Assembly: GCF_000688375.1 (NCBI RefSeq)
Contig: NZ_JIAF01000001.1
Coordinates: 310,001-374,000 of the forward strand
Reading direction: 5' to 3'
DNA from: Prevotella sp. HUN102
GTDB taxonomy: Bacteria > Bacteroidota > Bacteroidia > Bacteroidales > Bacteroidaceae
DNA: 64,000 bases
The position numbers were made by a program, and so were the translations under genes. Under the pieces are notes generated by a model. That model was given only the letters and a program-made list of their open reading frames with translations. It was not told where the DNA came from and ran no database searches. Below, one piece after another: positions 29,830 through 46,981 of the stretch; the stretch's first letter is position 1, and each line of letters begins with the position of its first letter.

Positions 29830-29831
29830 CA

Positions 29832-30262: not shown

Positions 30263-30303
30263 AAGGCCGCGAGTTTCCTACTTGGAATTCTCGCAGCCTT
30301 TTC
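30263..30303. terminator. Terminator, 30.28 kb
   Basis: AAGGC-GCGAG (from 30264) pairs with CTCGC-GCCTT (to 30301), with small mismatches and a T-run on the plus strand. It separates convergent operons. Confidence 0.7.
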
Positions 30304-30317
30304 CATCATAATAAGGT

Positions 30318-30626: not shown

Positions 30627-30631
30627 AGCCG

Positions 30632-30916: not shown

Positions 30917-31659
30917 TTGTCTTTATTTATCGATTGTTACTACTTGTTTACGCTAATTTCGGTTGCAAAGTTAGCCCAAGAAAACAGACTGATTTGCATA
31001 GTATGTACATAGCTATATAAACTTTTTCCCAAAGAAATGAATAGCTGGATAAATATATGAGTGAATAAGTATATACTTATACAATTATTCGTTCATCCAA
31101 TCATTTGGCTATTGAGACATCAATGTGTTGATTCAGCGATCTATCAATTCAATAATTCGCCAAGGCATTGAAGTACCGAACCATCAAATCACTAATGCAT
31201 TCAACTGTTGACAATTTAGTTCCTTGACGGTTTGACATTCTAATGACCTGAAACTTTAGTGCTTCAAGTAGTGGAAAAACTGATGATTTAGTGCATTCAT
31301 GAACTCATGCATTCACGAAAGCATAGTTCCTGACGGCATTTGTCTGTAAAGTGGCTGCAAGTGGCGGTTGATGGTTATTGTCCAATCGAATTTGTCGCAG
31401 TACCTTTGCACCCGCAAAAGACACTAAAGACAATTGTGATGGATAGAATAACCTATTATATGCAGCATCCGCTTGAAGAGCGGATTATTATGTTCGCCAG
31501 AACATAGCAAGGTATGTTTTCTGCTGCACGAAACTCCGTTTGCAGCACAAAACTCCTTGCTCTGCCGAGGGCTATGGCTGTCCTCCAAAGTCGGTCAGCC
31601 TATCCATACTTGCCGTAAGCATCAAGTGATAATTATATGTCAAACCCAAAATAACAAAG
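30917..31659. other. 743-bp non-coding region with possible oriT of unit 2
   Basis: No convincing gene. It holds AT-rich sequence, then GTACCTTTGCAC (31400-31411), which fits both a -7 promoter box and a GTAnnTTTGC att core. From 31480 to 31590 it holds a GC-richer stretch upstream of the MobA-like gene with a hairpin (GCTGCA 31523-31528, TGCAGC 31541-31546) followed by AACTCCTTGCTCTGC, reminiscent of oriT regions of Bacteroidota conjugative elements. Confidence 0.45.
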
Positions 31660-32085
31660 ATGAACAACAAGAAGAATAAGGGTGGGAGAAATCCCAAGGT
31701 AGACCCAGCGATAAACCGTTACTCCGTTAATTTTAGCAGTGAGGAAGATATGCGTTTTCTAAAGATGTTTGACCGTTCTGGCATGACAAGCAAGTCCGCA
31801 TTCATCAAGGCGCGAATTTTTGGAGAGCCTTTTCATGTGGTAACTTTCGACAAGAGTCTGCATGAGTATTATACCAAGTTGAGCGACTTCCATGCTCAAT
31901 TCCGTATGGTGGGCAACAATTATAATCAGACCTTAAAAGAGTTGAAAAGCCACTTCTCTGAACGAAGAGCAATGGCACTTGTATGTAAGTTGGAGAAGTA
32001 CATGATGCAGTTAGTGCAGATTATGCATGAGGTCGTAGAACTAACAAACAGGTATGAAAATCATCGAATTGGCAAGGATAATTGA
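31660..32085 (+). CDS. MobA-like relaxosome accessory protein
   Basis: A 141-aa basic protein of the MobA/MbpA type found before the relaxase gene in Bacteroidota conjugative elements: NRYSVNFSSEEDMRFLKMF, SGMTSKSAFIKARIFGEPF (ribbon-helix-helix-like), then HAQFRMVGNNYNQTLKELKSHF and LCKLEKYMMQLVQI. It should bind oriT. The relaxase gene that normally overlaps its 3' end is missing; after a short out-of-frame reading the sequence goes straight into the restriction operon. Confidence 0.8.
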   Translation: MNNKKNKGGRNPKVDPAINRYSVNFSSEEDMRFLKMFDRSGMTSKSAFIKARIFGEPFHVVTFDKSLHEYYTKLSDFHAQFRMVGNNYNQTLKELKSHFSERRAMALVCKLEKYMMQLVQIMHEVVELTNRYENHRIGKDN

Positions 32086-32158
32086 ATATAAACACATTTT
32101 TTTAACTCACAATTACCATTTTTTTACTTAACGGACATTGACTTTGAGATTTTTTGTG

Positions 32159-32166
32159 TATATTTG
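32159..32166 (+). promoter_or_regulatory. -7 box of the large restriction operon
   Basis: TATATTTG 23 bp upstream of the XRE start, with TTG at 32138-32140 as possible -33 element. Confidence 0.55.
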
Positions 32167-32188
32167 TAGCCAAATTATTAGCATACGG

Positions 32189-32395
32189 ATGGAACGTAAA
32201 AGAATAAACCGCCTAAAAGTGGTACTTGCAGAGAAAGGAATGACCAACAAGCAATTGTCGGAAATCCTTGACAAAGACCCTGCGGTTATATCTAAATGGG
32301 TGACAAACGCCGCCCAACCTAATGTAGAGATGTTCATCCGACTGGCACAGATTCTTAGTGTCAGCGTGGATGAATTATTGTGGACAGAAAAATAA
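32189..32395 (+). CDS. XRE-family HTH regulator (C-protein-like)
   Basis: A 68-aa single-domain Cro/C1-type repressor: KVVLAEKGMTNKQLSEILDKDPAVISKWVTNAAQPNVEMFIRLAQILSVSVDELLW. Its position 11 bp before a methyltransferase gene is that of controller proteins in restriction-modification systems, which delay nuclease expression until the methyltransferase has accumulated. Start placed at the ATG at 32189, just after the -7 box. Confidence 0.88.
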   Translation: MERKRINRLKVVLAEKGMTNKQLSEILDKDPAVISKWVTNAAQPNVEMFIRLAQILSVSVDELLWTEK

Positions 32396-32406
32396 AAAGA
32401 ACCTGT

Positions 32407-33465
32407 ATGAAAAAGAAATCGCAACAATTCAAGGCTATAGACTTCTTTTGCGGAGGGGGAGGCATGACTTGTGGATTACGTCAAGCAGGTATTGATGTGA
32501 TAGCAGGTGTGGATATAGACAAAGAGGCGAGAGCAACTTATGAGCATAATAATGAAGGAACTGTTTTTATCGAAAAAGACATAAGAAGGGTACATAGTGA
32601 CTATTTTGAACGTAATTTCAGCATACAAAAGAATGACGACAGCCTGATTTTGGTAGGTTGCAGTCCATGTCAGTTCTATAGCATTATCAATACAGATAAG
32701 GAATCTTCTCTAAAGACAAAAGATTTATTAAGGAATTTTGCTCGCTTTGTGGATTATTATAGACCAGGATATGTACTAGTGGAAAATGTTCCCGGCATTT
32801 TAACAAACAAACAAAGTATATGGCCTATGTTTCACAAAAAGCTCAAAGATTTGGGCTATGATAAGATTGTATATGATATTATAGACATGAGCTATTATGG
32901 GGTCCCTCAGTCAAGGCGGAGGTTCTCGCTGATAGCCACAAGACTAAAGGATATTGAAGTGCATTTGCCACAAAAAGATGAAAGGCAAGCATTGCTTTCT
33001 GATTTTATTGGTGTGAGACATGGATTTGCTCAAATAAGTGCAGGGACAAAAGACACAACTGATTTCAACCATACCGTTGCAGGTCTTAGTGACAAATGCT
33101 TAAGACGATTAAAAAAGACGAAACATGATGGGGGAAGTAGATTGTGCTGGGCTGATGATCCAGAATTGCAGTTAAGATGCTTTGTTGGTAAAGATGATAG
33201 TTTCAAAGATAGTTATGGGCGTATGTGGTGGAATAAGCCTGCTCCAACTATAACGACAAAGTTTTTTAGTATCTCTAACGGTCGATTCGGACATCCAGAT
33301 GAAGACCGAGCCATTTCATTAAGAGAAGGAGCAACTTTGCAGACATTCCCCAAGGATTATGTATTTAAATCTAATAGTATTGCAACTACAGCACGGCTAA
33401 TTGGGAATGCCGTTCCGTGTGAATATGCAAGAAGATTAGGTTTGTTAATTCAACAAAATGGTTGA
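32407..33465 (+). CDS. DNA cytosine-5 methyltransferase M1, large operon
   Basis: A 352-aa C5-methyltransferase: motif I IDFFCGGGGMTCGLRQAG (residues 11-28), motif IV VGCSPCQFYSII with Cys88, motif VI VENVPGIL, motif VIII MSYYGVPQSRRRF, motif IX-X LREGATLQTFPKDY and IGNAVPCEYA. A PTITTKFFSISNGRFGHP segment precedes motif IX. Paired with a second C5-methyltransferase at 38083, it may modify the other strand of an asymmetric site, as M1/M2 of LlaJI do. It ends 2 bp before the GHKL gene. Confidence 0.94.
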   Translation: MKKKSQQFKAIDFFCGGGGMTCGLRQAGIDVIAGVDIDKEARATYEHNNEGTVFIEKDIRRVHSDYFERNFSIQKNDDSLILVGCSPCQFYSIINTDKESSLKTKDLLRNFARFVDYYRPGYVLVENVPGILTNKQSIWPMFHKKLKDLGYDKIVYDIIDMSYYGVPQSRRRFSLIATRLKDIEVHLPQKDERQALLSDFIGVRHGFAQISAGTKDTTDFNHTVAGLSDKCLRRLKKTKHDGGSRLCWADDPELQLRCFVGKDDSFKDSYGRMWWNKPAPTITTKFFSISNGRFGHPDEDRAISLREGATLQTFPKDYVFKSNSIATTARLIGNAVPCEYARRLGLLIQQNG

Positions 33466-33467
33466 TT

Positions 33468-36422
33468 ATGGCACAATTCAGAACAAAGGCAAGAGCACTT
33501 GATTTATTAGGAAGACAGCAAATCGCAGGTATTCCGACAGCTATTAATGAGCTGATAAAGAATGCCCATGACGCGTATGCTGATCATTTTGATATAGATT
33601 TTCTGCGGAAGGACAATATGTTGGTTCTTAGAGATGATGGTATTGGCATGTCAAAATCAGATTTTCTTGATCGCTGGCTGACACTTGGCACCGATAGTAA
33701 AGTGGTAGGTAACAATAACGCATTACCTCCAACAGACCCTACTAAGCCTCAAAGACCAATAATGGGCGAGAAAGGAATTGGAAGACTGGCTATTGCATCA
33801 ATTGGAAGTCAAGTCCTTATATTGACTAAAGCAAAATATAAATCATCAAATAAAATCGTTGCGGCGTTTATTTGTTGGGATGTGTTTGAATTAACAGGAT
33901 TGAACATCGACGATGTCGTAATTCCTGTTAGGGAATATGATAATATTCCAACCAAAGATGATATAGATTCTATAAAAAGCGAATGTGTTGATTCTTTGGA
34001 ACAACTTAATAAAGTCGGTAAGGTTACCAGTGACAAATTATATTGTATATCGCAGAAAGTTAAGGAATTCAATTCTGATCTTTACACGATTTATTCTTTA
34101 ATAGGAGGTTCAACAGATATTCAAGAGGGTGGAACTCATTTCTTTGTTTCATCAGTAAGTGATTCATTAGTTCCTGATATTGAAGGCGAAGGTGATTCAA
34201 GTGAGGCAACCAAAATGGAAAAGATGCTGATGGGTTTTCACAACACTATGACCCCCAATCACCCAAAGCCCACGATAAACATATCATTCAGAGACTACAG
34301 GCATGATGACGGTACTTTTATTAGTCTATTAGAGGACAGACAGTTCTTTACCCCAGAAGAGTTTGAGATTGCCGATCATCACTTTTGTGGTCAGTTTGAC
34401 GAATATGGACAGTTTAAAGGAACAATCAAGATATATGGTGAGAAGACCTACAATCATGTAATTAACTGGCGTGATAATCATTACCGAGAAACTGAATGCG
34501 GCCCTTTTACTATAAATCTCGCCTATTTACAAGGTGAATTAAAAAGCTCCAGGGTTGATGTGGAAAATTATGGCATTATACGCCGTAAAGGTGACAAGTA
34601 TGGTGGTCTCTATATTTATCGTGACAATATTCGAATCCTACCTTACGGAGATTCTGATTATGATTTCCTAGACATTGAAAAGAATCGGTCTAAAAGGGCT
34701 TCAACATATTTCTTTTCATATAGAAGAATGTTTGGAGCTATTGAAATAGCAGATGGACAGCATAGTAAGTTAATAGAAAAAGCAGGTCGTGAAGGTTTTA
34801 TAGAGAACAAAGCCTATCGACAGTTGCAATCTATCTTGAAAAACTTTTTCTGGCAGTTGGCTGCTGATTTCTTTAACGAAAAAGGAAATACACCTCAATC
34901 AGAATTCTACAATGCCCGCAAAGATGAAATCAACTCTTTTTATCGTGCATTAGAGCGTAGAGATAAACTGGCCAAAGGAAGAAAAGACAAATTCCAAAAA
35001 GATTTAGAAAAGTTCTTTGTACTTCTTTCCGAGCACAAATTTGAACAAGAATGTGATGCAATAACAATAGAACTCAGAAACGATCTGTCTGCATTGGTAT
35101 ATATGAAAGATACAGATGTAGCGAGTCAAAGACTTATAGATTCAGAAATGAAAGCAAGGCAGTCCCTGACTGACTATCGGAAGAAGATTTCTGTCAATCC
35201 TCCAAAAGGTTTTGCCATGAGCAAGTCTTTGAGGGTTGACTATGAGTCATACTTGGAAGAATTCAAAATATTGGAAGAAAGTGTGTTCAATCCGCATTTT
35301 GAGCAAATAGACAACTTGGTTGATGAATTTACACAGCGCCTTCAATTAGAAGTCAATAAAAGAAAACGTTTAGAACAAGCTGTTGACATCATTTCAAAAG
35401 AAGCACTTTCCACAAATAAACAGAAAAAAGATGAGACAAACGATGTTGTAACAAGGGTTTCGAAAAAAATAAAGGACTTGACAAGCGAATTGATTTTAGA
35501 TTTGGATAATCAAATTCGAGAAGTTAAAGACCAATTTAAACTCCTTTCGACTAAAGATGACTTTAATCTTGTGTCGGAGAGAATGACTATGGAAAAGCAG
35601 ATTGATTCAATTAGCCAGCGTAATACAGATGTAATGGATCGAATCATCCGGCAATTTGAGAGTTTCTATGTCGAAAAGAATGATGATGGACAAATTATCA
35701 CTAATGATCAGATTGCAGATGCCACTTCGGAAGAATTAGAAGTGTTGCGCGAACGACTACAGACCGATGTAGAACTGAGTCAACTTGGCTTAGCCGTAGG
35801 TATTGTACATCATGAGTTTAATGGTACCATTAACTCAATTAGACATAGTATTAATGACTTACGTGCCTGGTCTGAGGTTAATGAAAATTTAGAAAAAGTA
35901 TATAAGAACATTAAGATAAATTTTGAACATTTGGATGGATACCTGAACTTGTTCACACCATTGAACCGAAGACTCAATAGGCGAAGGGAAGATATTTCTC
36001 TATTGGATATAAAAACATTTTTGATTGATTTGTTTAAAGCGCGCTTGGAAAGACACCAGATAGCATTTAAGCATACCAATGGATTTGCTCGTCATAAACT
36101 ATTCGGGTTTCGCTCGACATTCTATCCTGTGTTTGTGAACATTATCGATAATGCAATCTATTGGCTGAAGCAAAGTGATATTCCAGAGAAAGTTATACGA
36201 CTTCATGCAGATGATACAGGTATATATTTGTCAAATAACGGCTTATCTATAAAACCACAAGATAAAGAACGAATTTTTGAGATGCATTTTTCCAGAAAAA
36301 TCAACGGTCGTGGTATGGGGCTAAGTATAAGCAGGGAGGTTTTAGAGGCTGAGGGGTATTCGCTAATCCTTGACGAGCCCCGTGAGAATTCTACAGTAAC
36401 ATTCAAAATTTTCAAAAAATAA
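33468..36422 (+). CDS. Dual GHKL protein: MORC/HSP90-type ATPase plus histidine-kinase-like module
   Basis: A 984-aa soluble protein with two ATP-binding GHKL sites. N-terminal site: ELIKNAHDA (E28, N32, D35), LRDDGIGM (D57), GEKGIGRLAIAS, as in MutL/HSP90/MORC ATPases. The middle, about 450-750, is helical and coiled-coil rich. C-terminal site: an H-box AVGIVHHEFNGTINSIRH (H781-H782), N-box VNIIDNAIYWL, a G1 reading YLSNNGLSI without the usual Asp, F-box IFEMHFSRK, and G2 GRGMGLSIS. It looks like an ATP-driven clamp fused to a kinase-like end. The next gene encodes a receiver-like protein 2 bp away, so phosphotransfer between them is plausible. Confidence 0.85.
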   Translation: MAQFRTKARALDLLGRQQIAGIPTAINELIKNAHDAYADHFDIDFLRKDNMLVLRDDGIGMSKSDFLDRWLTLGTDSKVVGNNNALPPTDPTKPQRPIMGEKGIGRLAIASIGSQVLILTKAKYKSSNKIVAAFICWDVFELTGLNIDDVVIPVREYDNIPTKDDIDSIKSECVDSLEQLNKVGKVTSDKLYCISQKVKEFNSDLYTIYSLIGGSTDIQEGGTHFFVSSVSDSLVPDIEGEGDSSEATKMEKMLMGFHNTMTPNHPKPTINISFRDYRHDDGTFISLLEDRQFFTPEEFEIADHHFCGQFDEYGQFKGTIKIYGEKTYNHVINWRDNHYRETECGPFTINLAYLQGELKSSRVDVENYGIIRRKGDKYGGLYIYRDNIRILPYGDSDYDFLDIEKNRSKRASTYFFSYRRMFGAIEIADGQHSKLIEKAGREGFIENKAYRQLQSILKNFFWQLAADFFNEKGNTPQSEFYNARKDEINSFYRALERRDKLAKGRKDKFQKDLEKFFVLLSEHKFEQECDAITIELRNDLSALVYMKDTDVASQRLIDSEMKARQSLTDYRKKISVNPPKGFAMSKSLRVDYESYLEEFKILEESVFNPHFEQIDNLVDEFTQRLQLEVNKRKRLEQAVDIISKEALSTNKQKKDETNDVVTRVSKKIKDLTSELILDLDNQIREVKDQFKLLSTKDDFNLVSERMTMEKQIDSISQRNTDVMDRIIRQFESFYVEKNDDGQIITNDQIADATSEELEVLRERLQTDVELSQLGLAVGIVHHEFNGTINSIRHSINDLRAWSEVNENLEKVYKNIKINFEHLDGYLNLFTPLNRRLNRRREDISLLDIKTFLIDLFKARLERHQIAFKHTNGFARHKLFGFRSTFYPVFVNIIDNAIYWLKQSDIPEKVIRLHADDTGIYLSNNGLSIKPQDKERIFEMHFSRKINGRGMGLSISREVLEAEGYSLILDEPRENSTVTFKIFKK

Positions 36423-36424
36423 TT

Positions 36425-37978
36425 ATGGCACAGACGTTTGAAGAAATTACGAAGGGAGTAGTAAACCGTTTCCTTCAGAATATTCTCTTTATTGATGATA
36501 AAGCATTCCAATCAGATAATAAAGAAAATGAATTTGATGCGGGTCAGATTTCCAGTGCTTTCGCGAAGAACGGTAAGCTCTGTACTATTTTTGCACCGTC
36601 ATCAGAATGTGACTTGTGCCAATGTTCCTCGCTTTTCTCAAAAGCAGATGCAATTGTATTAGATTGGTATTTGGATTTAACATCCTCTAAAGAATCTGTA
36701 GATGATGAAAAAGATGCAGAAGAAGACGAACCAAGGGGATTTTATACGAAATACTTGATCGAAGAAATTGTTGCAGATGCCAAAAACGAAAAGTTTAAAA
36801 TAATAGTGGTATATACTGGTGAAACAGATTTAAGAGGAATAACTCAGGAAATATATAGATACATTGCCCAATATGGGGATTTCAAACAGGGTGATTGTTG
36901 TGTGTATTCTTCTAATGTGATGATTGTTGTTCGTGCAAAATATAATGGTGAAGAACAATTTAAACATTTAGAAGATTTGAAGGATAAGGTAATAAAATAT
37001 GAGAATTTGCCTGATTTCATAACTAATGAGTTTTCCATTCATGTAAATGGGCTGTTGTCTATTTTTGCACTACTTTCAATTTCTATAATAAGAGAGAATA
37101 CTTCTAGAATATTAAATGTTTATTCTCCAGAATTAGATAGTGCTTATTTAGGTCATAAGATGGTACTTCCAAATCCTGAAGATGCAAAAGAACTGTTAAT
37201 CAAATTATTTGGTGAATCCATTACAGATTTGATCTCCTCTTCATGCATTGATACTCAGGATTGGTTATCTTTATGGATTAAAGATAGATATAAACAGCCC
37301 AAAACAATAAAAGTGACAGACAATAAAAGCATACAAGTAAGCCAAGAGTGTATAGGAAAAATATTCTTGGCGCATTTTGACAATTTTGAAGAATATATCA
37401 AAGCGATTTTAAAAGTTTCCAATAAAGAAGCTAAGATTATCTATAAGAATGCCGCATTATTATTGGATGAGAATGCCGACTCAGTTAAAACTGCTAATCT
37501 TTTATTTGCAAGATTGACTCATCACAAAAATGTTTTCTTGCCTCAAAGAGAGAATCCATATTTAACTTTAGGAACCATCCTTTATTCCTCAACTACAGAC
37601 ATGTACTATTTGTGTATTCAGCAGCGTTGTGATTCGTTAAGAATAGACGGAATAAGAAGATTCTTATTTTTGCCTCTTGTTGAGAGTGGTGGAGAAACTC
37701 ATGTCGTTGTAACCAATGAAAAGCAATTACAAATAGCAAAGAATTCTTATGAAATTAAAACCATCAAATTTGAGGCAGATAAAGATAAACGATACGTATG
37801 CTCGAAACATATTAAAAATATGGGAAAGGATACTTTTGTCTTTACCTCTATTCATGATGAAGTATTTGAGTGGGTGTTAGAATTAAAAGATCTACATGCT
37901 CAGCGCATATTAAATTCTTATAGCGCAAATCTTTCTAGAGTCGGCTTAGATGAATCTGAATGGCTAAGGCAATTGTGA
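36425..37978 (+). CDS. Receiver-like domain protein, partner of the GHKL protein
   Basis: A 517-aa protein. Residues 17-175 fit a response-regulator receiver: NILFIDDKAF (D24-D25), DAIVLDWYLD (D80 as phosphoacceptor), IIVVYTGE (T131), VVRAKY (K172), with an acidic insert after D80 (residues 88-102). Residues 180-517 match no domain I know; they are AT-rich in coding, mixed alpha/beta, and may be the effector or adaptor. Five cysteines cluster around residues 53-68 and 158. Adjacent to and co-directional with the kinase-like protein. It could link a sensed signal to the downstream nuclease. Confidence 0.75.
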   Translation: MAQTFEEITKGVVNRFLQNILFIDDKAFQSDNKENEFDAGQISSAFAKNGKLCTIFAPSSECDLCQCSSLFSKADAIVLDWYLDLTSSKESVDDEKDAEEDEPRGFYTKYLIEEIVADAKNEKFKIIVVYTGETDLRGITQEIYRYIAQYGDFKQGDCCVYSSNVMIVVRAKYNGEEQFKHLEDLKDKVIKYENLPDFITNEFSIHVNGLLSIFALLSISIIRENTSRILNVYSPELDSAYLGHKMVLPNPEDAKELLIKLFGESITDLISSSCIDTQDWLSLWIKDRYKQPKTIKVTDNKSIQVSQECIGKIFLAHFDNFEEYIKAILKVSNKEAKIIYKNAALLLDENADSVKTANLLFARLTHHKNVFLPQRENPYLTLGTILYSSTTDMYYLCIQQRCDSLRIDGIRRFLFLPLVESGGETHVVVTNEKQLQIAKNSYEIKTIKFEADKDKRYVCSKHIKNMGKDTFVFTSIHDEVFEWVLELKDLHAQRILNSYSANLSRVGLDESEWLRQL

Positions 37979-38002
37979 TGTAAGAAGTAACACTATGAGT
38001 TA

Positions 38003-38053
38003 GTGGGTAACTATAATACACTTAAAGGGTAACTCGGAAAAGCTAGTGGGTAA
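38003..38053 (+). repeat. Three phased GGGTAA boxes before the second methyltransferase
   Basis: GGGTAA occurs at 38005-38010, 38027-38032 and 38048-38053, each in a context like AGTGGGTAACT. Spacing is 22 and 21 bp, that is two helical turns, so all three face the same side of DNA. They lie 30-80 bp upstream of the ATG at 38083, in the only sizeable gap of the operon. Probable operator. Confidence 0.6.
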
Positions 38054-38082
38054 GTTAAAACTATTAAGATTACGAAAAAACA

Positions 38083-39213
38083 ATGAATATATTTTCTTTC
38101 TTTTCAGGAGCAGGATTCTTGGACTTAGGCTTTGAACTTGAAGGACACTATGATATAGTGTTTGTCAATGAGTTTCATAAGGCTTTTAATGACGTGTATC
38201 AGTATGCACGCCTGAACATGGAACTTCCAACACCTTTATATGGACACCATGTAGAGAACATTATTCATTATGTAGACGGGACTCATCCAGAAATGTTTCG
38301 TGATTTGATGAATTTGGTTAATGAATCTAAGGAACGTGCTCTTACAGGATTTATAGGTGGTCCTCCATGCCCAGATTTTAGTGTGGCAGGGAAGAACAGA
38401 GGAAAAGAAGGAGATAATGGTAAATTGTCACAAACTTATGCAGACCTAATTTGCCAAGCTCAACCTGATTTTTTCCTTTTTGAAAATGTAAAAGGATTAT
38501 ATAGGACAGCAAGGCACAGGGATTTTTTTGAGTCATTAAAGCAACAATTTAGAGAAAGTGGATATTCATTGACAGAAAGGCTGATTAATTCTCTTGAATA
38601 TGGTGCTCCGCAAGACAGAGATAGAATAATACTTGTCGGCTTTAGTAAAAAAACGGTAGATTCTATGCATTTACCTGTAGAAAATGGGGTATTGCAAGGT
38701 TTTCCGTGGTTACAACATCAATTGTATAATTTAGATGAAATTAAAAGTTTACCTTGGCCAAAGAAGGATTCTTATAGAGAAGGTGTTCAAACAATAAAGC
38801 CTAATGGTATAATAGAAGATTTGACAGTCATGCACTGGTGGAGTCGGAATGACGTAGAACATCATCCAAATAGAAACATGTATTTCCGCCCGCGTGCAGG
38901 TCTTCATAGATTTGTAACAAAAGATGAAGGTGACGATGAAAAAAAATGCTTTAAGAGATTGCACAGGTGGAGATATTCTCCAACAGCAGCATATGGTAAT
39001 AACGAAGTTCATATACATCCATTCCTGCCCCGAAGAATTTCTGTTTCAGAAGCACTGGCAATCCAATCGCTACCAGCAAATTTCGTGCTTCCTGATGATA
39101 TTACATTGACAGATGCATTTAAGACTATAGGCAATGGTGTGCCTTTCGTGGCAGCTCGTGGTATTGCTGAGACTATTTACGATTACATCCATCATTATAA
39201 TCCTCAATTATGA
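38083..39213 (+). CDS. DNA cytosine-5 methyltransferase M2, large operon
   Basis: A 376-aa C5-methyltransferase: motif I FSFFSGAGFLDLGFELEG (residues 4-21), motif IV GGPPCPDFS with Cys96, motif VI FENVKGLY, motif VIII NSLEYGAPQDRDRI, motif IX-X ISVSEALAIQSLPANF and IGNGVPFVAARG. It is not a close copy of M1. Its last four bases (ATGA) overlap the start of the McrB-like gene, so modification and restriction subunits are translationally coupled. Confidence 0.94.
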   Translation: MNIFSFFSGAGFLDLGFELEGHYDIVFVNEFHKAFNDVYQYARLNMELPTPLYGHHVENIIHYVDGTHPEMFRDLMNLVNESKERALTGFIGGPPCPDFSVAGKNRGKEGDNGKLSQTYADLICQAQPDFFLFENVKGLYRTARHRDFFESLKQQFRESGYSLTERLINSLEYGAPQDRDRIILVGFSKKTVDSMHLPVENGVLQGFPWLQHQLYNLDEIKSLPWPKKDSYREGVQTIKPNGIIEDLTVMHWWSRNDVEHHPNRNMYFRPRAGLHRFVTKDEGDDEKKCFKRLHRWRYSPTAAYGNNEVHIHPFLPRRISVSEALAIQSLPANFVLPDDITLTDAFKTIGNGVPFVAARGIAETIYDYIHHYNPQL

Positions 39214-40907
39214 ATTTAACAATAGAACACATTCTAGATTTGATCAAAGAACTCCCTGTTAATACTGATTTCAACTATGTCAGTGGTGGAGATAGTAAAG
39301 CCAAACTTATTTATGTAGATAAAGAAAACTCCAAAGTTGAAATTGCTCGTGTTAATGCTGATGGCTCGGAAAAAAATGCGAGTATGACCACGGATATTCT
39401 CAACTCGTTGGTTGCAAATATCAAAGAAAACATCCCTTTTAAGTTTGACAATGTACTAAATGGAAGTGGGAATGTTCGGTCTACAATGGAGGCTATATTT
39501 GCTCACACGAAGGAATTCTATTCTTGCAAAATCAAACGCGTAAAACATTTAATATGGGTTCCAAGCATACCACATGAAATTGGGAAGATTATTAATTATG
39601 ATACAATAAAGCAAAGTGTTGAAGCATCATTAAGTAGCGAAAAATCAAAGATTGGCATAAAGGACTTACTGTATATAACCGCACTCCGCACTAAGCCCTT
39701 TCTTCTTCTTGCAGGCATCTCCGGTACAGGCAAAAGCCAGAAAGTTCAGGAATTGGCATTTATGACTTGCCCCGATGGTGAACTGCGGAATGAAGGTGGA
39801 ACCACACCAGGGAATTATTGTCTCGTAGAGGTGAAACCTAACTGGCATGACTCAACGGAACTGTTGGGATATTATAGTGCTTTGTCTGGTAAATATGAAT
39901 TGACGGACTTTATTCGCTTTGCATATAAAGCATCGCAGAATAAAGATGTGCCATTCTTCCTTTGTCTGGACGAGATGAATCTGGCACCAGTGGAGCAGTA
40001 TTTCGCTGAGTTTCTAAGCATATTGGAAACAAGGAAGAAAGTCGGAAACGAGATATTAACCCAATATCTGTTGAGCAAAGACCGTTTTAGCAACTGCGAG
40101 TTGCAGAAGAAAGTATTGGTGAAGGAAGATGGTGACATCATTGAGGGCGACAAGCAGTACAAGATGGAGCTCTTGTATTCTGAAAAGGACGCAGAAATCA
40201 TTACATACTTGAAAGAGAATGGACTGTCACTGCCCGACAACCTCTTCGTGATAGGTACGGTGAATATGGACGATACCACGCATCAGTTCTCACGGAAAGT
40301 AATTGACCGTGCTTTTACCATTGAAATGAATGGTGGTAAGATGTCGGAAATGTTCTCGCCAGAGAGCAAGATGCTGCTGGAATACAGGGAAGAGCCAATA
40401 CCCCTTGAAGCGTTCAAGGCTGAATTTGTAAGAGCATACGAAGTGCTGGCCGATGCGCGGTTTGCAAAATATAGGGATGTGATTTCTACTCGCATCCCAG
40501 AATTGTTGGGTAATTCCGATGGTACTGCCGAGGCGGATAGCATCAACGGCATACTGAATGAAACGCCGTTCCGTGTCAGCTATCGTGTGCAGAATGAGTT
40601 GGTGCTTTATCTGAGTACGCTGATAGAGCGTGCCAACTTCCCTCAGCCAGACCAGATAGAAGGACCGATAGGCGAAGCCACACTGGCTATTCTGTTGGAA
40701 AAGGTGCTGCCCCGTGTGCAGGGTGAGCAGAAGCAGTTGGAAACGCAGAATGGCAAAAGCAATGTGCTGAAGGATTTGAAGACTTTCGTGGAAAGCCATT
40801 TTAAACCCGAAGAAGATACTGATGCGAACTCGCTGTACAACCAAGTCCTTCGGAAGTTAAAGGAGATGGATGACAAGCTGGCGAACTATTATACCAACTT
40901 CTTCTAA
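39210..40907 (+). CDS. McrB-like AAA+ NTPase restriction subunit
   Basis: A 565-aa protein. Residues 1-150 are an AT-rich-coded N-terminal domain without known motif, likely the DNA-recognition part. The AAA+ domain has Walker A LLAGISGTGKSQ (G169-S176), Walker B PFFLCLDEMNLAPVEQYFAEFLS, and the McrB-type signature VIGTVNMDDTTHQFSRKVIDRAF. It should form a ring that translocates DNA using NTP (GTP in McrB) and activates the nuclease encoded next. Equivalent to R1 of LlaJI. Codon use shifts to higher GC from about 39.66 kb onward. Confidence 0.9.
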   Translation: MNLTIEHILDLIKELPVNTDFNYVSGGDSKAKLIYVDKENSKVEIARVNADGSEKNASMTTDILNSLVANIKENIPFKFDNVLNGSGNVRSTMEAIFAHTKEFYSCKIKRVKHLIWVPSIPHEIGKIINYDTIKQSVEASLSSEKSKIGIKDLLYITALRTKPFLLLAGISGTGKSQKVQELAFMTCPDGELRNEGGTTPGNYCLVEVKPNWHDSTELLGYYSALSGKYELTDFIRFAYKASQNKDVPFFLCLDEMNLAPVEQYFAEFLSILETRKKVGNEILTQYLLSKDRFSNCELQKKVLVKEDGDIIEGDKQYKMELLYSEKDAEIITYLKENGLSLPDNLFVIGTVNMDDTTHQFSRKVIDRAFTIEMNGGKMSEMFSPESKMLLEYREEPIPLEAFKAEFVRAYEVLADARFAKYRDVISTRIPELLGNSDGTAEADSINGILNETPFRVSYRVQNELVLYLSTLIERANFPQPDQIEGPIGEATLAILLEKVLPRVQGEQKQLETQNGKSNVLKDLKTFVESHFKPEEDTDANSLYNQVLRKLKEMDDKLANYYTNFF

Positions 40908-40913
40908 TATCGT

Positions 40914-43136
40914 ATGGAACTATTGCAATACAAATATCACGATGCCTACACCATCCAAGCCAGTAGCACGGATATATGTTTGTCGTGGCGGAAGTTCAAG
41001 GTGAGAACTAAGCAACTTCCACCAGAGCGGTATTGCAATTATGTGATGGCGAGTGGCGGTACGCTGAGAGCGTATAATGCAGACAGCAAAGCGATGGAGG
41101 AGGTGGCTGAGGCTGACTGGCACGAGGCCCGACCAGTCTTCTTTGAAGACCACAAGTATAACCTCACACTGACGTTTTTTGATGCTGCAGAGGAACCGCG
41201 CATCATTCATCCCAACAAAGAGGTGGAGGCGATGTTCAACACTGTTCAGACGGCATCGGGTGAGTACATCGTCAGTAGCAGTCTTGACTTCTTGAACCAG
41301 CCAGGTCACTTTGCCTTGGAGTTCGCCTACAAAAATACCGCCAACGAGCACATACGACACAAGATAGAGTTCGACGTGCTTTCGCCTAAACTCGATACGA
41401 AACACGACCTTGACATTATCATTCAGCAGATAAGGGCAGAATATGGTGACTTGGTTTTCCGCTATCTTACACTGACCTTTCAGCAGTTTGAGATGGGGCG
41501 TGAAGCTAATAACGAACTGATTTGGCTGTCGGTGTTCAAGCAGATTGTGGATAGTTATGTGCAGGCGGTTCGTTTCATCATTCATAAGCCACATAACAAG
41601 ATGCGCCAATATGAGGAATACCGAAGAGCCGAGCGCATCAAAGGCTGGACACCTATGTTGGCAGAAAGATTCAGCAATGACCGTCTGAATGATGAAGAAC
41701 AGGCATTAAGGAAATATTATAGGACGGAGCAAACGGAAGCGACTTTGGATACAAGGGAGAACCGCTTCGTGAAATATACGCTCCAACGCATCACTGAGCG
41801 TCTTTCGCTGTTAATACAAAGGCTTGGAGATGGAACATCGGATAGCGAGATAGAGAACCTGAAGGAGAAGCAGAAGGAACTGGAAATGCTTCGGCGAAAC
41901 TCGTTCTTCAATAGCATCGGACACTTTGATGGGTTCCGTCAGCAGAGCATGGTACTCCAGCAGCGCAGCGGCTACTCGCAGGTTTATCGCTATTGGATTA
42001 TGCTACAAAACGGCCTCGACCTGATACAAGGTGATACAAGCGTAGGTGTGCAGCCCATCTGGCGGCTCTATGAATTGTGGTGCTTCCTAAAGCTGAAGCA
42101 GCTTGTCTGCAAGGTGTTGAATATAGATGTCCACAACAAAGAACATCTTGAAAAGTATGTTCACGAAGACACGCAGAATGCCTTTGACTTGTTTAATGGC
42201 GGCACACTTAGTGGGAACATCACTTACACTAATCTGGAAAATGGCGATTTGGTGGAGGTGGGGTATCAGTATTCGTTTGATAGGAAAGGCGATGAACATG
42301 AGATGCGTTCTGCCACGACTGAGCAGAAGCCCGATATTGTGATGCACATTCACAAGAAGAACCGCGATATTACATTGACATATCTCTATGATGCAAAATA
42401 TAGTGTCCGTGGCGATGATGACGCAACTTTGGGCAACGTACAAGATGAGCCAAAGCCTGAGACCATCAACGCAATGCACCACTACCGTGATGCCATCTAT
42501 TATGGTAAGCGTGGTGAGCATCGTTTCTCGAAAGAAATCATCGGTGGATATATCCTCTTTCCTGGGCGTATGGACGAACACCGACTATTGGAGCAATTGC
42601 AGGATCACGATGACCAGTTGCCATACTTTCTGAAATCCATTGAAGAAGTAAATATCGGTGCATATCCATTGCTGCCAAACGAGGAAAGCGGATTGCTCTT
42701 AGAAAACCATCTCCGCAAAGTACTCCTTGATGAAAGTATCATTGAGCAACTTGAAGTGAGTGTGCCGCAGAGAGGTTTGTATTATATTGACACTCGGCCA
42801 AAGTCTGTTGAATCAAAGAATGTGTTTACTGTCACTGTCAGAAAAACGGATGCAGATTACCAGACATTCTTTGCCCATAAGGCAAAGAAGTATGTGATGG
42901 AGACCTTGCCAAAGGTGAACATCCTCGAAGCAGTTTACCTCCTTCCGATGGTAGGCGGTGATATTGACGGCTATTATAAAATATCAAGATTAACCATCGA
43001 GGATGGCAAGATGTGTCTAAAACTGGGTGAGTTTGTATCACTTGGTAACGAGTGGGTGAACATCTTCCAAAATATGCGTCATGGTGAACTTATTACTATG
43101 AATAATGTTTTGAAGTTGTATGGACAAAGATATTAA
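40914..43136 (+). CDS. DUF2357/PD-(D/E)XK nuclease restriction subunit (McrC-like)
   Basis: A 740-aa protein. The N-terminal half corresponds to DUF2357 (beta-rich, WRKFKVRTKQLPPERYCNYV and on). The C-terminal half is a PDDEXK_7-type nuclease: IWRLYELWCFLKL helix, QKPDIVMHIHKK with D474, and YLYDAKYSV with D493 and K495. Such proteins pair with McrB-like AAA+ rings and cut DNA, as the McrC and LlaJI R2 subunits do. It starts 6 bp after the McrB-like gene. Confidence 0.88.
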   Translation: MELLQYKYHDAYTIQASSTDICLSWRKFKVRTKQLPPERYCNYVMASGGTLRAYNADSKAMEEVAEADWHEARPVFFEDHKYNLTLTFFDAAEEPRIIHPNKEVEAMFNTVQTASGEYIVSSSLDFLNQPGHFALEFAYKNTANEHIRHKIEFDVLSPKLDTKHDLDIIIQQIRAEYGDLVFRYLTLTFQQFEMGREANNELIWLSVFKQIVDSYVQAVRFIIHKPHNKMRQYEEYRRAERIKGWTPMLAERFSNDRLNDEEQALRKYYRTEQTEATLDTRENRFVKYTLQRITERLSLLIQRLGDGTSDSEIENLKEKQKELEMLRRNSFFNSIGHFDGFRQQSMVLQQRSGYSQVYRYWIMLQNGLDLIQGDTSVGVQPIWRLYELWCFLKLKQLVCKVLNIDVHNKEHLEKYVHEDTQNAFDLFNGGTLSGNITYTNLENGDLVEVGYQYSFDRKGDEHEMRSATTEQKPDIVMHIHKKNRDITLTYLYDAKYSVRGDDDATLGNVQDEPKPETINAMHHYRDAIYYGKRGEHRFSKEIIGGYILFPGRMDEHRLLEQLQDHDDQLPYFLKSIEEVNIGAYPLLPNEESGLLLENHLRKVLLDESIIEQLEVSVPQRGLYYIDTRPKSVESKNVFTVTVRKTDADYQTFFAHKAKKYVMETLPKVNILEAVYLLPMVGGDIDGYYKISRLTIEDGKMCLKLGEFVSLGNEWVNIFQNMRHGELITMNNVLKLYGQRY

Positions 43137-43157
43137 AGTTGAATATTAACATGTACG

Positions 43158-44183
43158 ATGAATCGAGAAGAATTTGCAAAACGGCTTGAAGGAATCCAAA
43201 TACAAGAAGGTACAGACCCTAAAGTCCTTTATGATAGCGTGTTGCCTATTAGTGACGCGTTAACACAGATGATGCCCCAGAGTCTATTTCGTTATAGGTC
43301 TTGCACTGAGAAGCAAATAGATGCATTTCAAAAAGATACTATTTATGCAGTATCTGCTGACCTGTTTAACGATCCCTATGATACGCTAGTTAGGTATGAT
43401 CTTGATGGTATAAAAAATTACGTGAATGCCTTATTGGAAACAAATACCCTTGTTCAGTTGAAAAAATATCTTGAAGAAGGAAATGATTTCACAAACAATG
43501 TGAAAGATTCATTTCCTAAGGGCATGGTAGAGAAGATAAAAGAGCAAATATTAGCAACAGACTTTGAAGAAAAGAAAGATTTTCTTGCTACTTATAAAAG
43601 CCAAATGGTGCAAACAATAGATTTCTTATACCCTCTTTTAGCAGATGCAAGTAAACGGTTTGTTTCTATTGCATGCTTTTGCGAGTCAGTACAGTCTATA
43701 ACAATGTGGAGTCATTATGCTGATTATCATAAAGGATTTGCACTAGAATACGAAATGCGTCCAACACTAACAAAAGGAATAAAAGAGGGGGTTGGGCTAT
43801 ATCCTGTAATATATGATGATATACGTTACGATGCTTCTCAATACATGGCATGGGCTTTTTTGAAAATGTTTGGCATTTGTGCACCAAATCCAGACGTCCT
43901 TTCTCACACAAAATGTGTTTTGCATAAATCAAGGCAATGGGAGTATGAAAATGAGTGGCGTCTTGTAGACTATTCTACAAGAAACTATTTAGTGGAAAAT
44001 ATCACATCCATCAATTACAAACCTACGGCAATTTATTATGGAGTACATATTTCCAATGAGAATAAAGAACGCTTGCATAAGATTGCCAAGGCAAAAGGTA
44101 TAGCAGAGTTTGATATGTATATTGACTATTCTTCTCCGAGGTATGAGATGATGTATAAATCACACAAATGTTCTTCGGATTAA
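43158..44183 (+). CDS. DUF2971 protein
   Basis: A 341-aa protein with DUF2971 marks: SLFRYRSCTEKQIDAFQKDTIYAVSADLFNDPYD, FVSIACFCESVQSITMWSHYADYHKGFALEYEM, and RQWEYENEWRLV. The family is widespread in defence islands, but its biochemical role is not known to me. It starts 21 bp after the nuclease gene and so may belong to the same transcript, though its coding is more AT-rich. Its final codons (TCGGATTAA) are themselves one copy of a repeat found around the next gene. Confidence 0.85.
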   Translation: MNREEFAKRLEGIQIQEGTDPKVLYDSVLPISDALTQMMPQSLFRYRSCTEKQIDAFQKDTIYAVSADLFNDPYDTLVRYDLDGIKNYVNALLETNTLVQLKKYLEEGNDFTNNVKDSFPKGMVEKIKEQILATDFEEKKDFLATYKSQMVQTIDFLYPLLADASKRFVSIACFCESVQSITMWSHYADYHKGFALEYEMRPTLTKGIKEGVGLYPVIYDDIRYDASQYMAWAFLKMFGICAPNPDVLSHTKCVLHKSRQWEYENEWRLVDYSTRNYLVENITSINYKPTAIYYGVHISNENKERLHKIAKAKGIAEFDMYIDYSSPRYEMMYKSHKCSSD

Positions 44184-44266
44184 CAAGCGATTCCTGAGAA
44201 TTAACAAACGAAGGAATCATATTTAGCAGGCAACAAGCGTTATATATAAGTCGGATTAACAAACGT
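44177..44266 (+). repeat. GGATTAACAA boxes, upstream cluster
   Basis: GGATTAACAAGCGA (44177-44190), GAATTAACAAACGA (44198-44211), GGATTAACAAACGT (44253-44266), and a partial GGCAACAAGCGT (44229). The first overlaps the DUF2971 stop codon; the last ends 7 bp before the AlbA_2 gene start. Likely operator, probably for autoregulation of the AlbA_2 gene. Confidence 0.65.
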
Positions 44267-44273
44267 ACAAAGT

Positions 44274-45950
44274 ATGACAGAACAAACATTACAACAATAT
44301 CTCATTAAGCAATACCCCAAAGAGGATGAGGGTTGCGAGTGGAAGGAATTCAAGAACTTGAAGAATGACTTCAGCGGTCATGAGAAGGATGATGTCATCT
44401 CCTACGTGTCTGCATTGGCTAACATGGAGGGTGGGCATCTGGTTGTTGGTGTCGAGGACAAAACGTTGAGGATTGTTGGGACGGATACCTACAACTACGA
44501 TGTGCAAAAAGCACGGCTACGCTTAATTGATCAATGTGCCAATCTACCTTCAGAGGGGCTGCTTGTAGAGGAATTTATTACAGATGATACTCATAAAACA
44601 GTATGGGTCATCCATGTGCCAAGACACATGAAGAGACAACCCGTTTATGCGCATAACAAGGCATGGCAGAGGCTGGATGACTCGTTAATAGAGTTGACGG
44701 ATTCTCGCAGGAATGCAATCTTGGACGAGCTGGACGAAGTGGAAAAGGACTGGTCTTCACAGATTATCCATGATGCAACTATTGATGACCTTGATCCTCG
44801 TGCGGTTGCCAAAGCCAGGGAGAAATTCATTGAATTGCATCCTGAAAGAGAAACAGAAATAAAAGCGTGGGACGATGCAACATTCTTGAACAAAGCGAAA
44901 CTTACGATAAAGGGACAAATCACAAATTCAACAATCATTCTTTTAGGCAGAGAGGAAAGTGAGCACTTCCTTTCGCCTGCCGTTTGCAAGATCAGATGGA
45001 TGCGCAAAAAGAATGGGACAGACGAGAATGAAGAGTTTGGTATATTCTCTATTCCCATGATACTCGCGGTAGATGAGGTTGCGGGGAAAATAAAGAATGC
45101 CACATACACTTATACGATAGAGGGAAACATGTTCCCTGACACCTTATTGCGCTACGATGTTTTCACCATTAGAGAGCCTTTATGTAATGCCATTGCACAT
45201 CAGGATTATAGCCTGTCTGCGAGAATAGAGGTAGTTGAATATGAAGATGAACGTCTGCGTTTTAAGAATTATGGTACATTCCTACCATTGTCCGTTGAGT
45301 CTGTGGTCGAGAATGACTTTCCGGAATCAAGATACCGAAACAAGTTTTTGGTGGAAGCCATGCGTAACGTGAAAATGGTGGAGACAGAGGGCGGTGGTAT
45401 TCGCAAACTCTATATGCAGCAAAAGAAGCGTTTCTTTCCAATGCCAAAGTATGACTTAGGCGGACAGACGGTAATTTGTGAGATAGAGGGAAGAGTGTTG
45501 GACGAGAACTTTGCCAAAATACTGGTCAACAATCCCAATTTGACTTTGGCGGATATTATCTTATTAGATAAAGTACAAAAGCATGAGCATGTTTCAGAAG
45601 ACTCCCTTGCATATCTTAGGAGAAAGAAATATGTGGAAGGCAGAAAGCCAAATGTTTATTTGGCCTTCTCTGTTGTTAAGCAATCTAAACATGTGGGATT
45701 AAAGACATCTTATATCAAAAACAAAAGTTTTGATGACGATTATTTCAAAAAACTCATCATTGACTATATTACCAATTTTGGAAAAGCCACTCGTCAGGAG
45801 TTAACTGCATTATTGGAAAACAAACTGCCAGAAACGCTTTCCAAGCAACAGAAATTTGACAAGGTCACCAATCTTCTATCTTCGCTTAAGAAAAAGGGTA
45901 TCATTAAAGTCATTGATAGAAAATATTGGGTAATGGCAAAGTCGGATTAA
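44274..45950 (+). CDS. AlbA_2 (Schlafen-like) domain protein with GHKL-like region
   Basis: A 558-aa protein. Residues 15-125 are an AlbA_2/Schlafen-type domain: EDEGCEWKEFKNL, VISYVSALANMEGGHLVVGVEDKTLRIVG, ending in VWVIHVPRHMKRQPVYAHNKAWQR. Residues 295-385 fit the HATPase_c_4 region: IREPLCNAIAHQDYSLSARIEV ... LRFKNYGTFLP ... ETEGGGIRKLY. The C-terminus holds winged-helix-like segments. Relatives are often called transcriptional regulators or RecG-like ATP-binding proteins and occur in defence islands. Repeats flank it on both sides, suggesting a regulated single gene. Confidence 0.82.
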   Translation: MTEQTLQQYLIKQYPKEDEGCEWKEFKNLKNDFSGHEKDDVISYVSALANMEGGHLVVGVEDKTLRIVGTDTYNYDVQKARLRLIDQCANLPSEGLLVEEFITDDTHKTVWVIHVPRHMKRQPVYAHNKAWQRLDDSLIELTDSRRNAILDELDEVEKDWSSQIIHDATIDDLDPRAVAKAREKFIELHPERETEIKAWDDATFLNKAKLTIKGQITNSTIILLGREESEHFLSPAVCKIRWMRKKNGTDENEEFGIFSIPMILAVDEVAGKIKNATYTYTIEGNMFPDTLLRYDVFTIREPLCNAIAHQDYSLSARIEVVEYEDERLRFKNYGTFLPLSVESVVENDFPESRYRNKFLVEAMRNVKMVETEGGGIRKLYMQQKKRFFPMPKYDLGGQTVICEIEGRVLDENFAKILVNNPNLTLADIILLDKVQKHEHVSEDSLAYLRRKKYVEGRKPNVYLAFSVVKQSKHVGLKTSYIKNKSFDDDYFKKLIIDYITNFGKATRQELTALLENKLPETLSKQQKFDKVTNLLSSLKKKGIIKVIDRKYWVMAKSD

Positions 45951-46068
45951 CAAATCAAACAAACGAAATTCACAAACAAAAAGTGATAATAGTAGCGTAA
46001 AATGGGGCTTTATGCGGATGTCGGATTAACAAATGAAATCCAATTAACAAACCAGAATTAACAAATAA
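45944..46068 (+). repeat. GGATTAACAA boxes, downstream cluster
   Basis: GGATTAACAAATCA (45944-45957, overlapping the AlbA_2 stop codon), GGATTAACAAATGA (46023-46036), CAATTAACAAACCA (46041-46054), GAATTAACAAATAA (46055-46068). Same unit as the upstream cluster, so the gene is bracketed by at least seven copies. Confidence 0.65.
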
Positions 46069-46381
46069 GATTTGGTTATGTCATATTAGTTTTGTACCTT
46101 TGCACTCACGATGAGCGTTCTTTGATTTGGTGAGAAATGTGTAGGAATATGTAAGTCCTCTCGTTTCTAAAGTGTTACCTTCATCTTTTCCGTTCAAAGG
46201 TAACCATCTGATATTCAAATCGAAAATAGAAGTTCTACTATTTTGAGACCGTTCTATTTCATTACCTTGCGTTTCTTTGCTAAATTGCTATTTCCCGTAT
46301 TTCCGAGGTTTTCTGTGTAATGCATTTATAGTCAGTGAAAAATGCACTATTATTCCGATTTCAGTTGATTATTCCAACGTT
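46069..46381. other. Right end of the island, non-coding
   Basis: No gene seen. It contains GTACCTTTGCAC (46094-46105), identical to 31400-31411, then AAGTGTTACCT near 46171 and GGTAACC near 46200, which match the boxes at the left end of unit 2 near 27150. These fit integrase arm sites next to attR. Confidence 0.5.
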
Positions 46382-46394
46382 TTTCTGTAACTTT
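46382..46394. repeat. attR of the island (13-bp direct repeat)
   Basis: TTTCTGTAACTTT, identical to 14553-14565. With the following GC it gives GTAACTTTGC (46387-46396), an exact GTAnnTTTGC core. To the right is the displaced 5' end of the IS982 element. Confidence 0.85.
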
Positions 46395-46515
46395 GCCCTC
46401 GGTAAGCATAGCGATTTTTGTTTGTAATTCTTTGTATTTTAGCACTATAAAGTTACAACAAATTTCGCTAATTGCCAAATTTACAAGAACTTATAATTCA
46501 TCGAACTCACGTTAA
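46382..46515 (-). mobile_element. IS982-family element, displaced 5' part
   Basis: Read on the minus strand, 46515-46382 begins with the terminal repeat TTAACGTGAGTTCGA, carries a promoter-like region (GTAACTTTATAG, then ATTACAAACAAAAATCGCT) closely like that of the second IS982, and enters coding at ATG 46409-46407 as MLTEGKVTE. The remainder of the gene is at 13675-14552. Confidence 0.85.
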
Positions 46516-46534
46516 TTAATTATTTAATTATACA

Positions 46535-46981
46535 ATGGCAAAAATAAAAATTGGAGATTTAGTAAGAGTAAAATTATTAAATGATATGTATATGTGGGTA
46601 CATGTACTGTTTGACTCACAATTTATAACAAAAGGGAAAAAAGAAATAGATCCTTACAATTATTTTTCTTTTTATGCATCGTGCTATTTGGTTAATGTTT
46701 ACTCACAAATTTCAAAAGAAGAGGAATTAAAAGATGATGAAATATTTTTTAAGGGTATCTTTATCCCAAGAAGTCATCTTAGAAAATACGGCTCTACTAT
46801 ATTCAATATTCCAGTTGATTATAAGCAAATAGATTTCCCTGAACATACAGGAGGATTAAATTCTTCTTTTTGGCTATCAAAAGGGGAACTGGTATTAGGC
46901 AATATACCAAAAGAAAAGATAAATGAATGGAATAATCGTTTTAACGGAGGTTTCAGTGATATATACGCCAGTTCGGGATAA
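46535..46981 (+). CDS. Hypothetical protein, 3' end replaced by IS982
   Basis: A 148-codon AT-rich frame. The protein starts AKIKIGDLVRVKLLNDMYMWVHVLFDSQF, which is faintly like Imm26-type immunity proteins (an IKIGDL...G.VL pattern), and continues as a mixed soluble fold. The last six residues (YASSG and the preceding Ile) and the stop are encoded by the terminal repeat of the IS982 element starting at 46962, so the natural C-terminus is lost or altered. Before the IS and island insertions this gene lay about 45 bp downstream of the PqqD-like gene, so it may have been part of that operon. Confidence 0.55.
   Translation: MAKIKIGDLVRVKLLNDMYMWVHVLFDSQFITKGKKEIDPYNYFSFYASCYLVNVYSQISKEEELKDDEIFFKGIFIPRSHLRKYGSTIFNIPVDYKQIDFPEHTGGLNSSFWLSKGELVLGNIPKEKINEWNNRFNGGFSDIYASSG

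Follow-up and report, generated by a model that had tools for sequence, protein, structure and literature searches.

Here we describe a restriction operon of Prevotella sp. HUN102 that contains a histidine-kinase-like and a receiver-like protein. The window, by which we mean the whole analysed stretch of 64,000 nt, covers positions 310,001-374,000 of contig NZ_JIAF01000001.1 (GCF_000688375.1). According to the open reading frame (ORF) listing and the Pfam domains, nine genes lie on its + strand at 32189-45950 (table 1). We call the two C5-cytosine methylases (C5-methylases) M1 and M2, the kinase-like protein HK, the receiver-like protein RR, and the McrB-like ring and its nuclease partner McrB and McrC. 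An earlier note on this DNA had given the gene order, lengths and direction, an ATGA overlap of the M2 and McrB genes, and the residues H782 of HK and D80 of RR, all of which agree with the ORFs, Pfam matches and alignments. It had also recognised a kinase/receiver-like pair within a restriction operon, which is borne out by HEF_HK and Response_reg_2 matches over their cut-offs, and a plan like that of BsuMI and LlaJI, which holds for the layout of two C5-methylases, a McrB-like ring and a PD-(D/E)xK nuclease in one direction. BsuMI combines a pair of C5-methylases with a McrB-like protein and a nuclease, and we know of no HK or RR in it.

Table 1. Genes and repeats of the operon, in window positions.
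Feature	Position	Strand	Basis
XRE-type helix-turn-helix protein	32189..32395	+	HTH_3 over Pfam cut-off
M1, C5-cytosine methylase	32380..33465	+	DNA_methylase 171 bits
HK, 984 amino acids (aa) from ATG 33468	33468..36422	+	HATPase_c_3, HEF_HK and HATPase_c over Pfam cut-offs
RR, 517 aa	36425..37978	+	Response_reg_2 receiver (D80) and C-terminal domain with C397-x4-C402-D403
Three direct repeats TTAGTGGGTAACT, RR-M2 gap	38000..38055	+	spacing 22 and 21 bp; candidate operator
M2, C5-cytosine methylase	38083..39213	+	DNA_methylase 164 bits
McrB-like AAA+ ring	39210..40907	+	Walker A and GTVNMDD; PADLOC PDC-M26A, REase_II (residues 3-132)
McrC-like nuclease	40914..43136	+	DUF2357 141.5 bits and PDDEXK_7 101.8 bits
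DUF2971 protein (rider)	43158..44183	+	Pfam over cut-off; PADLOC candidate PDC-S31
Schlafen AlbA_2 protein (rider)	44274..45950	+	SLFN_AlbA_2 and HATPase_c_4 over cut-off

The gaps of a few bases mentioned in the earlier note are found between M1 and HK and between HK and RR (2 bp each, with HK counted from its ATG), but not between RR and M2 (104 bp) or between the DUF2971 and AlbA_2 genes (90 bp). For M1 an alternative start is possible at the ATG at 32407. It is plausible that the whole operon is carried on one transcript, and the XRE protein is its probable autoregulator. Bacteroidota-type promoters have the motif TTTG-N17-23-TAnnTTTG. Exact + strand matches to it number 0 in 32189-45950, the next one downstream being at 46071, and a looser copy with TATATTTG was found by eye at 32159-32166, just upstream of the XRE gene. 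Predicted sigma-70-type promoters (51 against 47.9 in shuffles) and terminators (12 against 10.0) stayed at about the shuffle level and were set aside, and Rfam gave nothing at gathering score over 31000-48000. The RR-M2 gap (37979-38082) holds an iteron-like triple repeat of 13 bp units, and an array of at least three such copies came up in 1 of 2000 shuffled sequences and 4 of the 1229 window tiles; one box, GGGTAACTCGG, was also spotted by eye between RR and M2 in a second locus (L153). McrB scores under the Pfam cut-offs (nSTAND6, AAA_5), yet it has the motifs GISGTGKS and GTVNMDD, so that with Walker A, an NxxD signature and a DUF2357/PD-(D/E)xK partner the two proteins are of the McrBC type. 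The nuclease motif PDIVM...YDAK of McrC is found at residue 473. A label as BbrUII/HgiDII restriction enzyme (NF050001) was rejected, with 68.5 bits over residues 11-129 only against a curated score of 550.

HK is composed of an N-terminal GHKL-S5 clamp ATPase, a coiled coil, HEF_HK with H782 and a C-terminal HATPase_c, in this order. HEF_HK scores 99.4 bits (cut-off 24.1) between HATPase_c_3 and HATPase_c, both over cut-off, and Response_reg_2 in RR scores 91.4 bits (cut-off 27). We counted residues over 90 HKs longer than 850 aa and 85 RRs longer than 400 aa, window included and shorter, split or cut ones omitted. H782 is invariant (90/90), as are E28, N32, D35, D56, G58 and G60 of the N-terminal ATPase (90/90 each). 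In RR, D24 and D80 are present in 85/85, a T or S at position 131 in 85/85 and K172 in 82/85. The structural model of HK (mean predicted local distance difference test score, pLDDT, 77) has a long coiled coil between its halves; Foldseek matches the N-half to SMCHD1, Hsp90 and MORC3 and the C-half to HK853-RR468 complexes. With an N-terminal GHKL domain, intact motifs and an S5-like domain, HK is of the paraMORC/MORC type. A nuclease hidden in HK was considered, but the 50 Foldseek matches listed are ATPases and histidine kinases.

The receiver of RR structurally matches KdpE and PorX. In PorX a receiver is fused to the enzymatic PglZ domain (as far as described in the available text of PMC12839542), which offers a precedent for such a combination. 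The C-terminal domain of RR keeps G383, C397 and C402 in 84/85 members (one gap) and D403 in 81/85, with Glu in 3. We rejected its assignment to a known family, since no Pfam family recurred among the 45 members searched (zf_CopZ being the most frequent, in 3/45), and a profile search of the PDB returned a single match with E 0.53. The Foldseek and VIA results for RR are taken up by the receiver, so that "undescribed" for the C-terminal domain refers to sequence searches. The conserved C-x4-C suggests that RR may itself be an effector.

To see which genes belong together we surveyed 15 Bacteroidota loci (from 393 + 395 genomes) and 80 named loci, 95 in total, of which 91 remained after dropping L059, L080, L082 and L083, which are on the same contigs as other surveyed regions. 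The named loci are the best 80 of 502 and therefore lean towards the HK of the window. The Bacteroidota loci (L032-L046) are the 15 strong HEF_HK hits; five weak hits (L047-L051), with no M1 or RR match by phmmer, were left out, as were the weak hits G559, G555 and G418, and three near-copy pairs (L032/L072, L052/L054, L111/L112) were retained. RR is found behind HK in 90 of the 91 loci, the exception (L107) stopping at a contig end. A C5-methylase lies upstream of HK on the same strand within three genes in 80/91, and in any orientation in 86/91. Wherever RR is the very next gene the HK-RR gap is at most 50 bp (87/87, median -4). An XRE match up to four genes upstream of HK is found in 5/91 loci, and likewise in two viral contigs mentioned below.

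This constancy identifies the three-gene unit M1-HK-RR as the conserved part, and not a LlaJI operon with an inserted pair. The idea of an "embedded" pair is thereby reversed: it is the McrB part that is the addition, and a rare one (3/91 loci and the window). The earlier note would have given up its proposal if the pair were a passing insertion absent from most related operons. Most of the 20 operons with a McrC relative indeed lack the pair, three having RR, but the pair is constant where it is present, and the constancy of M1-HK-RR among relatives led us to reject a passing insertion into a LlaJI operon.

The surveyed loci belong to Bacteroidota, Pseudomonadota, Spirochaetota, Acidobacteriota, Chloroflexota, Gemmatimonadota and Actinomycetota, with one cyanobacterium and Methanosarcina-type archaea. 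Within the 393-genome draw, no HEF_HK was found in the same genus (2 genomes) or in further genomes of the same family (3). Plasmid records gave only 2 distant HK matches at E<=1e-40 (25-26% identity) and phage records none at E<=1e-20. In IMG/VR, 12 of 14 contigs have HK beside RR with an adjoining methylase (L180-L190, L192); of the other two, L191 is cut off once HK ends, and the distantly related L193 has neither RR nor methylase. Two of these contigs (L180, L181) read XRE-M1-HK-RR-Vsr, with RR split in L181, and so the unit may move with proviruses. We also noticed a sister arrangement (L177:4562-10182) in which an 877-aa dual-GHKL protein (HATPase_c_3 and HATPase_c, but not HEF_HK) is followed first by a 612-aa protein that has the CD..R motif of the RR C-terminal domain and no receiver match, and then by an M2-like methylase.

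What follows RR differs between loci. Ten of the 90 loci with RR stop at a contig end, which leaves 80 readable ones, scored with unlabelled ORFs under 120 aa ignored. In 43 there is no further same-strand gene behind RR (36 meet an opposite-strand gene and 7 a gap over 250 bp), from which we conclude that HK-RR does not need McrB. The others are followed by Vsr only (11), an OLD-like ATPase (4, the raw count of 5 including a spurious 26-bit "AAA(OLD)" label in L098), an HNH nuclease (4), a McrB-type ring (3) or other genes (15). The McrB module is therefore a rare option and not the chassis. Among its three surveyed carriers, RR and McrB overlap by 17 bp in L033, followed by Fic and a DUF2357-type nuclease. 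In L053 RR is followed after 21 bp by McrB with MrcB_N and then by DUF2357/PDDEXK_7. The third, L057, has RR, M2, McrB, a Bro-N protein, a nuclease that matches RE_LlaJI weakly (21.8 bits against a cut-off of 23.6) and Vsr. The order M1-HK-RR-M2-McrB given in the earlier note thus recurs in L057, which has the plan of the window with a different, LlaJI-type nuclease.

In the HK tree the window, L033, L053 and L057 fall in one clade of seven rows with a support of 100 (quick method). These four McrB carriers have three ring/nuclease types, so ring/nuclease pairs seem to be exchanged within one HK clade. Starting from McrC instead, relatives are found in 20 of 393 genomes, and RR stands beside McrC in 3 of the 20: the window's own, G218 (L033) and G357 (L153). 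The upstream side of the McrC relative is cut off in L155, L164 and L165. L153 reads truncated RR, M2 (71% identical), split McrB and McrC; its RR gene lacks the start, with another ORF between it and the contig edge, and no HK was found in the G357 genome. Two others, G139 (L152) and G314 (L157), have methylase-methylase-McrB-nuclease with no HK/RR, which is the LlaJI plan, and L152 carries the closest McrC (39% over residues 17-629). At L152:2722-11135 the methylase-methylase-McrB-McrC genes are followed by an OLD-like ATPase with TOPRIM. The only McrB relative in IMG/VR is a partial one (L194) with no HK-RR in view.

The two methylases appear to have different partners. M1 is 59-67% identical across the other six clade members, and 49-66% in the target region, regardless of the gene behind RR. 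It scores 137-620 bits against most methylases of the three-gene unit and 40-49 bits against those of L152, and so is nearest to the methylases of HK-RR loci and not to those of a LlaJI-plan locus. M2 relatives at E<=1e-50 are found in 6/393 genomes. The N-terminal domain of McrB (about residues 1-130) recurs in L057, L153 and a 359-aa protein of L176 that has no AAA+ match, in each case directly behind an M2-type methylase, and it accompanies M2 in the window too. By BLASTP it is absent from the McrB of L033, L053, L154 and L157, and L152 has a partial match only, from residue 62; these five loci have no close M2 relative (best 71 bits, L157). According to the abstract of PMC1459862, the McrB-like subunit of LlaJI alone determines specificity, and M2 with the McrB N-domain therefore looks like a matched site cassette, in which the N-domain is probably the site reader that travels with M2. 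The independence of M1 from the downstream gene means that M1 probably belongs to HK-RR and M2 to McrB-McrC. This suggests two recognition sites rather than one asymmetric site. The neighbouring M2 also argues that McrC would cut unmethylated sites, as LlaJI and PcaI do.

Further genes lie around this core. The AlbA_2 protein is a possible auxiliary effector and resembles the Schlafen and minimal-histidine-kinase auxiliary effectors near BREX loci (available text of PMC12839542). A relative of it (333 bits) is found behind McrB-McrC in L166, where L166:5497-11658 reads XRE-McrB-McrC-AlbA_2 with no methylase in view, the Schlafen-type protein thus standing behind another McrBC pair. Upstream of the operon, window positions 21676-32085 hold mobile-element genes (Toprim_2 primase, DUF5906, a tyrosine recombinase and MobC_2), and MobC_2 at 31660-32085 directly precedes the operon. 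Downstream, a small protein with a sub-threshold Imm26 match (46535-46981; 22.9 bits, cut-off 23.3) lies between the operon and an insertion sequence (IS) transposase at 47066-47986, which has 7 full-length copies in the genome (97-100%), its own included. A second member of this IS family lies at 13675-14544; the two transposases share only 47%, and we rejected a composite transposon made from them.

The HK/RR kind of element has been known since 2021, when HEF_HK (PF19191) and Response_reg_2 (PF19192) were described as a two-component-like element linked to C5-methylases (Bellieny-Rabelo 2021, PMC8011034). The main text of that study, which started from stress-induced expression, reports 91.6% linkage across 644 regions, with C5-methylases upstream and with Vsr, HNH and further type II nucleases in the neighbourhood, and relates the HK to paraMORC ATPases. 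The window agrees with it in HK architecture (its group 1), receiver family, adjacent genes and upstream C5-methylase, whereas the RR C-terminal domain is characterised there only as lacking known domains. The claim of the earlier note that no such system had been described therefore falls for the pair and its restriction-modification link. The exact set with McrB/DUF2357 is absent from the main text of PMC8011034, which has 0 occurrences of McrB, McrC, DUF2357, AAA_5 and LlaJI. We recognised no description of that set in the literature searched (mostly titles and abstracts), and no other paper on the HK/RR pair as judged from titles and opening lines. What is added here is the M2-McrB-McrC coupling, the pattern in which cutters are swapped, the joint occurrence of M2 and the McrB N-domain, and the conservation of the RR C-terminal domain.

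Several better known systems share parts of the operon. LlaJI has two 5-methylcytosine methylases, a McrB-like subunit and a PD-(D/E)xK subunit in a single orientation, and its abstract is without HK/RR (PMC1459862). The nuclease of the window is DUF2357 with PDDEXK_7 and not RE_LlaJI (PF09563), which places it outside the LlaJI nuclease family; RE_LlaJI matches weakly in L057 and L157. PcaI, which restricts plasmid and phage, also pairs a DUF2357 nuclease with an AAA+ GTPase subunit, but has one methylase, and the available text of PMC8989522 has 0 occurrences of histidine kinase, GHKL, HATPase and response regulator. The Type I-B CoCoNuT, likewise of the McrBC type, includes a receiver (REC) domain, and its authors suggested that a histidine kinase controls it, so that the link between a receiver and a McrB ring is not wholly new as an idea. 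There, however, REC is fused to the coiled-coil CnuA and the predicted target is RNA; the available text of PMC11090510 has no GHKL, HATPase or MORC term. MORC and paraMORC proteins have a GHKL-S5 ATPase at the N terminus and share operons with C5-methylases and Vsr, but neither a histidine-kinase half at the C terminus nor a receiver partner is described in the available text of Iyer 2008 (PMC2292703).

Our preferred reading, to which we give a probability of about 0.42, is that M1-HK-RR is a conserved defence unit whose operon has gained a downstream module of the LlaJI/PcaI type, M2-McrB-McrC, and that RR licenses the cutter. The reading draws on the constancy of the genes, the invariance of residues, the predicted folds, the exchange of downstream nucleases and the joint occurrence of M2 and the McrB N-domain, and the lack of an exact Bacteroidota-type promoter match on the + strand within the operon also speaks for it. 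HK would dimerise on DNA as a MORC/Hsp90-like ATP clamp and, we infer, sense a foreign state such as structures of phage replication or sites that M1 has not marked. The coiled coil would relay the signal to H782, from where it would reach D80 of RR, and phosphorylated RR might, via its C-terminal domain, license or recruit the cutter, here the McrB ring. The McrB N-domain would aim the ring at the M2-protected site and McrC would cut, which would make restriction signal-dependent, as the earlier note had proposed. In all three surveyed carriers (L033, L053, L057) McrB is found directly behind RR or RR-M2, and this close linkage of RR to different McrB cutters, confined to one clade, favours licensing. 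Several observations weigh on the other side. Besides the 43 of 80 loci that end with RR, the clade members L052, L054 and L061 lack McrB, and the clustering of McrB on the tree is modest (3 label changes against a shuffled mean of 4.0, with 19 of 500 shuffles as low). Most McrC relatives work without HK/RR. The G1-box Asp of the kinase is Asn in the window and in 51/90 HKs overall, the box being degenerate here. Finally, RR keeps its own conserved C-terminal motif even beside McrB and may be the effector.

The last point leads to an alternative that we consider a serious contender and slightly the less probable of the two, the two being close: M1-HK-RR is complete, the RR C-terminal domain is the effector, and M2-McrB-McrC, DUF2971 and AlbA_2 are separate defence genes sharing a transcript. 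It is favoured by the loci without a downstream gene, and is consistent with the near-invariant G383, C397, C402 and D403, with the absence of a nuclease among the 50 matches listed for the HK model, with an M1 target domain that is similar whatever lies behind RR, and with M2 having its own partner domain in McrB. The match of that C-terminal domain to no known family speaks against it, as does the position of McrB in all three carriers, once overlapping RR and always in one HK clade. This position also makes it improbable that a McrB module simply dropped behind RR in a defence island with no functional link, even though the window holds a second restriction-modification system and mobile-element genes and the addition is rare (3/80); McrC relatives are, moreover, found in only 20/393 genomes. 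HK-RR might instead be a cytoplasmic two-component transcription regulator that raises the downstream restriction genes upon stress. The three 13-bp repeats between RR and M2, at 21-22 bp spacing, would fit this, and so would the stress-induced expression from which the 2021 study began (main text of PMC8011034). Yet Pfam finds no DNA-binding family in the RR C-terminal domain of 45 members, there is no room for an operator in L033, where RR and McrB overlap, and little in L053 (21 bp), and in many loci no gene lies behind RR that could be regulated, so we regard this explanation as unlikely. A generalisation of the licensing reading is possible but doubtful: a modular kinase-gated platform, in which a MORC-type clamp and His-Asp phosphotransfer would let the receiver license interchangeable cutters (RR's own domain, HNH, the OLD-like ATPase or the McrB-nuclease pair), with restriction switched on by a signal and not by missing methylation alone.

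In the usual description of restriction methylation alone is decisive; if the licensing reading is true, some systems would also await a phosphorylation signal. A clamp ATPase/kinase and a receiver are constant across phyla before changeable nucleases, and the role of a prokaryotic MORC-like ATPase becomes testable here through point mutants of H782, D80 and C402. The C-terminal domain of RR, strongly conserved and undescribed, may be a new defence effector.

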